From Phaeobacter sp. B1627 (GTDB taxonomy: Bacteria; Pseudomonadota; Alphaproteobacteria; Rhodobacterales; Rhodobacteraceae): 64,000 nt of DNA. The notes under the pieces were generated by a model. That model searched no databases. It worked only from the letters and a program-made list of their open reading frames with translations, and was not told the origin of the DNA. The first letter of the stretch is position 1; the number at the start of each line of letters is the position of its first letter. The translations under genes and the position numbers were made by a program. The stretch spans positions 1 to 64,000 of the forward strand of contig NZ_VCNK01000028.1 of the NCBI RefSeq assembly GCF_006265095.1. The letters are read 5' to 3'. This document shows, piece by piece, positions 8,495-59,796 of the stretch.

Positions 8495-8610
8495 GAGGTG
8501 TTTCCGTCCGTTCCGGACCGACCCGCGCGCGCCGGGCCAAAGGCCCGGCGCGCGCTCCCCGCCGACCCCGAGGGGGCCCACCTTTGGTGGGAGCAAAAGG
8601 GGGCGGAAGG
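8495..8610 (+). repeat. Three-hairpin interspersed element, copy 2
   Basis: GAGGTGTTTC (8495-8504), a 5-bp hairpin (8506-8518), GACC, a perfect 14-bp hairpin (8525-8538 with 8542-8555, AAA loop), a third hairpin (CCCACC/GGTGGG, 8577-8591) and the tail CAAAAGGGGGCGG. It lies in the convergent gap between the cyclase and mipZ, 72 nt after the cyclase stop and in its orientation. The stem sequences differ from those of the other copies while the spacers are similar. Confidence 0.75.
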
Positions 8611-18730: not shown

Positions 18731-19120
18731 GCCCTCTCGGCCTCCTTTGCCGGTTTAAAACGCGTGCCCCACATGTAGGGGGCGGTGGAACGATGCACAA
18801 TCATCCCCGGTCAGTGACACCACAATAGGGTGCCGGATGGGAACGATCCAAACAGTATTGCCCCCACGGGCGCAACGCGCTGGTGGAGGGCGATCCCCGG
18901 TATCAGCCGAGGACCGGAAGTCACAAGAGGCTTCCGGAGTTGCGAGGGACGTACCCCCGCTACACTCAGGAGTCAAGTCAGGCTTTGCCCGGCAGTGCTG
19001 GCCGTACGGGCAGTTCAGGCAGTTCAGGCAGGTCGGGGGGCACGGGCTGCGCTCGTGTCCCAACCGAGCCCGTGATCAAAGACCACCACGGGCTCTTGGC
19101 TTCGGGCAGGACGACCCGGA
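18731..19120. other. Intergenic region between azoR and ffh
   Basis: About 390 bases without a credible gene. It should hold the ffh promoter. A 9-bp direct repeat (CAGTTCAGG, 19011-19028) and a hairpin (19066-19095) near the azoreductase stop are visible. I looked for an SRP RNA beside ffh and did not find its conserved tetraloop region. Confidence 0.6.
19066..19095 (-). terminator. Candidate terminator after the azoreductase gene
   Basis: A 9-bp stem GAGCCCGTG/CACGGGCTC (19066-19074 with 19087-19095), 25 nt past the azoR stop on the minus strand. The T-tract is poor, so it may be a weak terminator. Confidence 0.5.
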
Positions 19121-41860: not shown

Positions 41861-41987
41861 GAGGTGTTTCGCTTCGGGCATAGCCCGAAGCGACCGGCGC
41901 GGTGGCGCGCCCTGCGGGCGCGCCACCGCGCTCCGCCCAACCGAACGAGGGCCTGAAAGGCATGAGGTTTGGGCGGGAGGTCACCCC
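41861..41987 (+). repeat. Three-hairpin interspersed element, copy 3
   Basis: GAGGTGTTTC (41861-41870), a 9-bp hairpin (41871-41879 with 41883-41891), GACC, a perfect 16-bp hairpin (41897-41912 with 41916-41931), GCCCAAC, a short hairpin GCCT-GAA-AGGC (41951-41961) and the tail GGGCGGGAG-GTCACCCC. It starts 32 nt after the small membrane gene and in its orientation, in the convergent gap before the TRIC gene. Confidence 0.8.
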
Positions 41988-51577: not shown

Positions 51578-52002
51578 CGAAGGCTGGCAAAAGCCGAGAC
51601 CGGAGGTGCCGGAATGCGGGGTAAACGGGCCGGGATGAATGCCTGGCAGTGCGTGCCCCTGTTGTAGCCCCGGTACCAACTTGCTGTTCCAGCCACCTGC
51701 AACAGCCCGTTTCACAAGGGACGAACGGCACGAGGGGTTGCGCTGCGCCATGCGCATCGCGAGGGGGCGGGGGCCGCGCCTTCGGCGCGGCCCCCGCCCG
51801 GCCCAACGCTTTGCCGGGAGGCATCGCCTCATGGTCAAAGGGGCGGGAGCTCCCCCTACTGGATCCGGAAACCTGCGGCATAGGGTCCACAATCTCATGT
51901 GATCCTGCCCTTGCATGGCGGCCTCCCGCCGGGCCGGCTTGACTTGCGGCGGGCAGGCCCGCATGTACGCCCGGACCTGTCCCATAATGACCGGAGAGCC
52001 TG
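51578..52002. other. Intergenic region between acpS and lepB
   Basis: About 425 bases holding element copy 4 (51732-51856). Nothing else is identifiable; lepB probably has a promoter here but I cannot place it. Confidence 0.6.
51732..51856 (+). repeat. Three-hairpin interspersed element, copy 4
   Basis: GAGGGGTTGC (51732-51741), a 9-bp hairpin with one mismatch (51740-51748 with 51752-51760), a perfect 16-bp hairpin (51765-51780 with 51784-51799, TTC loop), GGCCCAACG, a 5-bp hairpin GAGGC/GCCTC (51818-51830) and the tail CAAAGGGGCGGGAGCTCCCC. It is closely similar to copy 5 on the opposite strand and lies 155 nt after acpS in the same orientation. Confidence 0.85.
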
Positions 52003-59671: not shown

Positions 59672-59796
59672 GGGGGAGCTCCCGCCCCTTTGAAATGCGC
59701 CAGAGGCACATTGTAAAAGCGTTGGGCCGGGCGGGGGCCGCGCCGAAGGCGCGGCCCCCGCCCCCCGGCGATGCGCGAAGCGCAGCGCAATACCTC
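59672..59796 (-). repeat. Three-hairpin interspersed element, copy 5
   Basis: On the minus strand: GAGGTATTGC (59796-59787), a 9-bp hairpin with one mismatch (59768-59788), a perfect 16-bp hairpin (59729-59744 with 59748-59763), GGCCCAACG, an 8-bp hairpin with one wobble (59694-59712) and the tail CAAAGGGGCGGGAGCTCCCC (to 59672). It lies 35 nt after the cation transporter gene in the same orientation. Stem 2 is identical to copy 4; stem 3 is wholly different in sequence but still paired. Confidence 0.85.

Follow-up and report, generated by a model that had tools for sequence, protein, structure and literature searches.

Hairpin elements in the window

The window analysed here (the whole stretch of DNA, 64,000 nucleotides) carries five multi-hairpin elements, E1 to E5, all proposed in an earlier note made from the letters alone and all found when we read the DNA directly and folded it; the limits given below are refined ones taken from that reading. 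E3 (41861-41979, + strand), a whole type A element beside genes with the Pfam domains Transgly_assoc and Gly_transporter, consists of hairpin 1 (H1; 41870-41892, +), with a 10-bp stem and a 3-nt loop, hairpin 2 (H2; 41896-41932, +), with 17 pairs and the loop TGC, hairpin 3 (H3; 41935-41974, +), in which GCCC and an AACC bulge precede the stem and GGGC closes it, and a GGGAG tail (41975-41979, +). E1 (88-211, - strand) is also of type A, with H1, H2, H3 and a GGGCGGGAG tail at 88-96, and lies beside a glutathione S-transferase assignment; R1, a model built from 23 copies, matches it at 80-153 with an E-value of 0.044. E4 (51732-51849, +; ACPS and Peptidase_S26), whose H1 runs GCGCTGCGC..GCGCATCGC, and E5 (59679-59796, -; HD domain and Cation_efflux) are of type B, and both match the pattern GCCCAACN{30,55}GGGCGGGAG exactly, which 100 shuffles of the window never did. 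E2 (8495-8609, +; guanylate cyclase domain and MipZ) belongs to a diverged subfamily that R1 misses at E≤1: it has a GAGG-tg-TTTCC H1, GACC, a GC-rich H2, an H3 closed by CCCC..GGGG and the tail GGGGGCGGAAG. The H1-GACC-H2 plan of E2 recurs at the orthologous gap in two other genomes (G156 and G159) and is decayed in a third (G160); by eye, the H1 stem of the G159 orthologue is compensated.

On one strand, the window copies each have H1, a GC-rich H2 with a 3-nt loop, a spacer, H3 and a G-rich tail. The plan of the family is (GAGG-nn-TTTC hairpin 1) - GC-rich hairpin 2 - GCCC[AACn] hairpin 3 GGGC - GGGAGCNC, in which a clamp forms between GCCC and the GGGC of the tail, and AACn is an unpaired bulge separating this clamp from the upper stem. 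Past the tail the consensus continues as GGGCGGGAG-C-N-C-Y-M-C-C, with C at position 3 in 49 of 55 copies and at position 6 in 50 of 55.

The claim that no named Rfam family has this description held in a cmscan search against Rfam 15, in which neither the window nor six element loci gave a gathering-threshold match over an element, all matches there being sub-threshold. Likewise, none of the titles and abstracts searched in the open-licence literature names this repeat. The sole Rfam match over threshold in the window is an ffh RNA (RF01793) at 18853-18904 on the - strand. A 30-nt stretch of the E4 hairpin 2 (51770-51800) is ~93% identical to 13 sphingomonad plasmids, a match that is likely to reflect a common GC hairpin.

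Copy number and distribution

Searching the source genome with GCCCAACN{20,50}GGGCGGGAG gave 55 exact matches (the strict copies), compared to 0 for the reversed control, and every one of the 55 is preceded, a few bases or less on the 5' side of GCCCAAC, by a 6-19 bp hairpin containing no more than one mismatch. R1 gave at least 68 matches in this genome at E≤0.1, the weakest at 0.087, from 150 scored of 5505 first-look candidates; it found nothing in 400 kb of the genome's sequence picked away from known matches. By all methods the genome holds at least 80 copies, comprising 77 placed copies (pattern matches, R1 matches including weaker ones in fetched loci, and E2) and three further H1+H2 matches (C70:197622, C51:54519 and C42:144008). 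The earlier note had expected hundreds of copies per genome, which is more than we found, and had taken a lack of further copies as evidence against its proposal; further copies are present, and together with the covariation described below they bear out its idea of one dispersed family with fixed spacers and variable stems. Its three-hairpin plan describes all five window copies, but just 20 of the 55 strict copies have an H1, and the three-hairpin form is thus a subclass rather than the rule for the family.

All 18 genomes of the genus carry the element, with 4-86 exact matches each, the count of 4 coming from a 67%-complete genome. Across the family Rhodobacteraceae, sampled as one genome per genus, 35 of 149 genomes have at least one match and 16 have at least five: G073 has 129, the source genome 55, G037 50, G007 46, G096 28, G005 27, G125 23, G031 17, G089 16 and G063 15, followed by G015, G038 and G048 with 10 each, G069 with 7, and G075 and G100 with 5 each. 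The other 19 genomes with matches have 1-3 each, a level that the reversed control also reaches. At the level of the class, matches occur in 21 of 289 genomes, the source genome included. Spread beyond the family was rejected, as the 20 of 285 class genomes outside it that match do so once or twice each and the reversed control matches in about 36 genomes; matches outside Rhodobacteraceae are at chance level. Among the matches in the 80 stretches listed, of at least 116 from named records, an H2 of at least 7 bp accompanies 31 of 38 in Rhodobacteraceae (sorted by title) but only 4 of 46 elsewhere, indicating that most of the latter arise by chance; the listed carriers with such an H2 include Leisingera, Phaeobacter, Ruegeria, Tritonibacter and Epibacterium. 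The megaplasmid of Ruegeria sp. TM1040 (NC_008043.1) also carries a copy. Several contigs of G150, G156 and G158 start inside elements, which suggests that draft assemblies may break off at the elements or collapse copies of them.

Position relative to genes

Genes were called with a home-made caller trained on the window. Seventy of the 77 placed copies are flanked on either side by a called gene, in 37 convergent, 14 tandem sense, 16 tandem antisense and 3 divergent arrangements, compared to 29 convergent, 123 tandem and 45 divergent among 197 background gaps of at least 100 bp (window plus 400 kb). Against this background, whose stretches were chosen non-randomly, the convergent excess has p of about 1e-13 and the divergent deficit p of 2e-5. 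Because tandem copies lie in sense (14) and antisense (16) to the upstream gene in similar numbers, transcription from that gene is not required. The median distance from the tail to the downstream gene is 51 nt in convergent and 32.5 nt in antisense tandem arrangements. Of the 37 convergent gaps, 28 have the tail nearer to the gene on its side than H2 is to the gene on the other (p = 0.003), a number that becomes 25 (p = 0.047) when 45 nt are allowed for H1. Pairs of copies also occur tail-to-tail or head-to-head, and the tail itself is pseudo-palindromic (GGGCGGGAGCNC).

Intrinsic terminators likewise present GC-rich hairpins after stop codons, and the earlier note had conceded that the stems might prove to be unrelated GC-rich terminators. 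No U-tract follows the element on either strand, however, so the elements are not ordinary terminators. With a simple scanner, terminator-like matches turned up at 16 of the 96 gene ends that have an element and at 10 of the 91 that lack one, and this lack of contrast led us to reject a depletion of classical terminators at element sites; because such matches are rare at both classes of gene end, the scan says nothing about replacement.

Covariation and the folding strand

The earlier note had proposed a test for covariation, and the stems do covary: an alignment of 62 copies scores 0.529 for covariation, compared to 0.124 (SD 0.011) for shuffled and 0.04-0.07 for slid alignments, although the score leans towards the model because the alignment was fitted to it. 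In the same alignment 92.2% of 1199 cells are paired, compared to 68.2% after shuffling. The H2 hairpins of the source genome were also recovered by plain complementarity, and the closing pair of the H3 upper stem covaries across the 62 copies, being G-C in 37, C-G in 13, G-U in 7, A-U in 2, other pairs in 2 and a gap in 1.

To determine the folding strand, we scored G-U and A-C equally and counted both inside H3 stems. The G-U:A-C counts are 21:5 in the source genome, 16:4 at loci from the genus and 13:1 in G073, compared to shuffled ratios of 1.24, 0.85 and 1.12, and they are 86:26 in 143 sequences of the genus and only 35:24 (shuffled ratio, 1.19) in mixed named records, many of which are chance matches. 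Among 4-nt loops, GNNA accounts for 48 of 80 and its complement TNNC for 2 of 80. The copies are related, and these counts are thus not independent events. Mismatches in H2 (G-U:A-C of 4:8, 3:5 and 12:6) carry no clear strand signal, and the commonest listed 3-nt H2 loops have no strand preference (TTC, TGC and TCC, 24; GCA, GAA and GTA, 23). The excess of G-U over A-C in H3 and of GNNA over TNNC indicates single-strand folding of the strand on which the earlier note had read the plan. An RNA would explain this more simply than single-stranded DNA; folding of RNA is not proven by these counts, because G-T pairs and GNNA loops may stabilise single-stranded DNA too.

This asymmetry bears on two other accounts of the family. 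A duplex-site role has been proposed for E. coli BIMEs, and the elements might similarly be double-stranded sites (for gyrase, a nucleoid protein or a cruciform) that mark convergent gene ends, as their position, the pseudo-palindromic tail and the tail-to-tail and head-to-head pairs would allow; we regard this as improbable, since a duplex or two-armed cruciform predicts no asymmetry and both the G-U excess and the GNNA loops are strand-specific. It is also quite unlikely that the copies are multi-copy trans-acting small RNAs, of the SorX/SorY or cuckoo kind, read from either strand. In one copy, L034, which was analysed closely, the opposite strand does resemble SorX/SorY (Rfam RF02784 and RF02651) in having a stem-loop, a CCUCCC-GUUGG spacer that reads ACCUCCC(C/U)GUUGG(G/A)C and a second stem-loop, and the L034-type opposite strand often reads CUCCUCCCGUUGGGC in G073. 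The scores, however, are 26.5 and 27.7 against gathering scores of 46.6 and 111, the copies lack the terminal U-run of the SorX/SorY models, the strand tests favour the other strand, and no common promoter-like sequence was seen upstream by eye. With respect to the cuckoo comparison, CUCCUCCC occurs on the opposite strand in G073, as sequence only. Cuckoo/CcsR RNAs go with a DUF1127 gene at the CIN1 locus (PMC10253847).

Shared, empty and rewritten sites

For the other species of the genus, we took the first listed loci of each genome plus two paired-copy loci, giving 33 elements. A flank orthologue lies within the element loci of the source genome for 22 of these, the other 11 being not judgeable; at those 22 sites the source genome has its own copy by pattern in 18 (17 in the same orientation) and by R1 in three more (L114, L116 and L119). 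Thus, 21 of 22 sites are shared, and the remaining one, L113, has its matched flank 1069 nt away. In G073, which belongs to another genus, 18 of 54 rows (some loci listed twice) have a flank orthologue within the element loci of the source genome, which has a copy there in 5 of the 18.

Sites corresponding to the window copies were located in sister species by gene order rather than by pattern. The E5 site is full in G156 and G154, retains H1 and tail only in G159 and lacks the element in G160, G153 and G157; the gap measures 221-235 nt in the source genome (G000), G156 and G154 and 47-62 nt in G160, G153 and G157. G150 has a copy matching E5 close to a contig end. The E3 site is full in G154; G159 and G152 keep H1+H2 without recognisable core and tail, and G150 and the G156 assembly have H1 only. 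The filled E3 gap is 188 nt, compared to 3-15 nt in G160, G153, G149 and G151, where the element is absent, and gaps without the motifs measure 53 nt in G155 and 79 nt in G161; this comparison leaves out G158, G165, G162 and G164, in which the right anchor is missing. At the E4 site, G156 has a full element and both G159 and G160 have decayed ones; at the E2 site, G156 again has a full element, whereas that of G159 is still recognisable and that of G160 is decayed. In G154 neither E4 nor E2 was seen. A difference between filled and empty gaps may reflect either gain or loss of the element. By eye, and with diverged flanks, alignments of filled with empty sites contain no target-site duplication or terminal inverted repeats.

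At full shared sites, H1+H2 are 91-97% identical and both motifs are identical. H3 identity between the source genome and G156 is 100% at E5, 94% at E4 and 73% at E2, and between the source genome and G154 it is 42% at E3 and 30% at E5, where G156 and G154 also share 30%; H1+H2 of the source genome and G154 are 93% identical at E3 and E5. In G073, 28 of 55 pairs with near-identical H3 have a different H2, near-identical copies differ by compensated H2 changes, and homogeneous subfamilies are present. The family is thus a mosaic, in that the same H3 joins different H2 in G073 and H3 has changed far more than H1 and H2 at some sites. H3 may, more specifically, be an exchangeable cassette between GCCCAAC and GGGCGGGAG that can be swapped or re-templated within an existing element, H1+H2 being kept, such that the last hairpin of some eighty modules would turn over far faster than H1 and H2 with its fold preserved. 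The contrast of 42% and 30% H3 identity with 93% for H1+H2 in G154 and the recombined hairpins of G073 speak for such exchange; we nevertheless consider it unlikely, and the H3 that the source genome and G156 share at E4 (94%) and E5 (100%) speaks against it.

These site comparisons also fit a selfish REP- or MITE-like element whose folding as single-stranded DNA (or RNA) serves its own propagation, with the gene-end bias reflecting tolerance and the shared sites slow loss. Filled and empty E5 and E3 gaps among sister species, near-identical subfamilies inside G073, H1+H2 matches of about 80-95% scattered through the genus and the avoidance of divergent gaps are all consistent with selfish spread. 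At shared sites, however, the stems have kept their complementarity, for which dead copies would have no use, no target-site duplication was seen by eye, and no mobiliser was found, and we judge this account possible but somewhat unlikely. Mobilisation by a RAYT was not supported: a Y1 transposase (PF01797) occurs in 16 of 149 genomes of the family, comprising 4 of the 16 with at least five matches (the source genome, G007, G015 and G089) and 12 of the 133 others, a slight excess that does not track copy number, and it is absent from G073 (129 copies), G037 (50), G096 (28), G005 (27), G125 and G031. The sole Y1 match of the source genome is a 134-aa frame at L050 1501-1860 (G000:C44), and both strands of its 3.4-kb locus lack GCCCAAC and GGGCGGGAG.

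Interpretation

The earlier note had proposed no function for the elements. Our preferred reading, with a probability of roughly 45%, is that the family is a mosaic REP-like repeat of mobile origin that is kept as an RNA 3'-end module in the Roseobacter group. Dispersal, empty sites and homogeneous subfamilies argue for the mobile origin, and the strand-specific fold, the position at gene ends and the shared sites argue for the folded 3'-end module. A dispersed multi-hairpin intergenic repeat would have spread by some mechanism, and copies would then have been retained at gene 3' ends where one strand, once transcribed, folds into a useful 3'-end module. RNA from the folding strand would be expected to form H2 and H3, and the module might mark or shield the RNA end or limit read-through into the opposing gene; the median distance from the tail to the stop codon of that gene is 33-51 nt. 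The fixed AACn bulge and GGGAG tail could provide the contact for a protein or for copying machinery.

The hallmark of a known dispersed palindrome is usually a conserved stem. In the present family the stems vary freely, whereas the bulge and tail are constant and the fold is strand-specific, which points to a partner that reads the single strand. If this partner is a host factor, the Roseobacter group, in which few classical terminators came up in a simple scan, would have an RNA 3'-end system to which the elements belong; a mobiliser, in contrast, would have to be one that the Y1 transposase does not explain. For comparison, sister species have a given gap in filled, decayed and empty states.

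Comparison with known systems

By behaviour, the nearest known systems are REP/BIME elements with RAYT, which in E. coli and Pseudomonas are dispersed intergenic palindromes at gene 3' ends, with inverted pairs and mosaic modules. The present family shares dispersal at gene 3' ends, rarity in divergent gaps, inverted pairs and mosaic modules, but differs in that its stems vary across the 55 strict copies while the unpaired motifs are fixed, and in having 2-3 hairpins over about 80-125 nt. ERIC, BOX and NEMIS-type MITEs are dispersed imperfect palindromes of about 100-130 nt. Compared with this general description, the elements are similar in size, dispersed and found at filled and empty sites, whereas no terminal inverted repeats or target duplication were seen and the stems are rewritten between copies.

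In integron attC sites, which occur in arrays and fold strand-specifically, an RYYYAAC box pairs with GTTRRRY. GCCCAAC fits the RYYYAAC box and the folding here is also strand-specific, but the tail lacks GTTRRRY, GCCC pairs with GGGC, AAC is unpaired and the copies are scattered. By reading, GCCCAAC faces GGGCGGGAG in the strict copies, an arrangement for which the pattern itself selects.

Two further candidates were rejected. Pairs of copies 1.9-3.2 kb apart (L181-L186) do not form composite transposons, since the genes listed between them are ordinary ones such as zapE and a transporter gene, and an apparent replication polarity in G073 came from a strand-ordered listing of '+' copies only, the fuller listing being mixed. 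At L181 and L182 (G149 and G151), two inverted copies 2.9 kb apart flank zapE and the transporter gene, and in each of the two species the pair shares an almost identical hairpin 3. Many G073 copies (for example, L153, L184 and L165) have upstream of them a stretch that resembles an inverted element and contains GCCCAAGGCCG on the opposite strand; in L153 this stretch also has a GGGCGCGGGAG-like tail.
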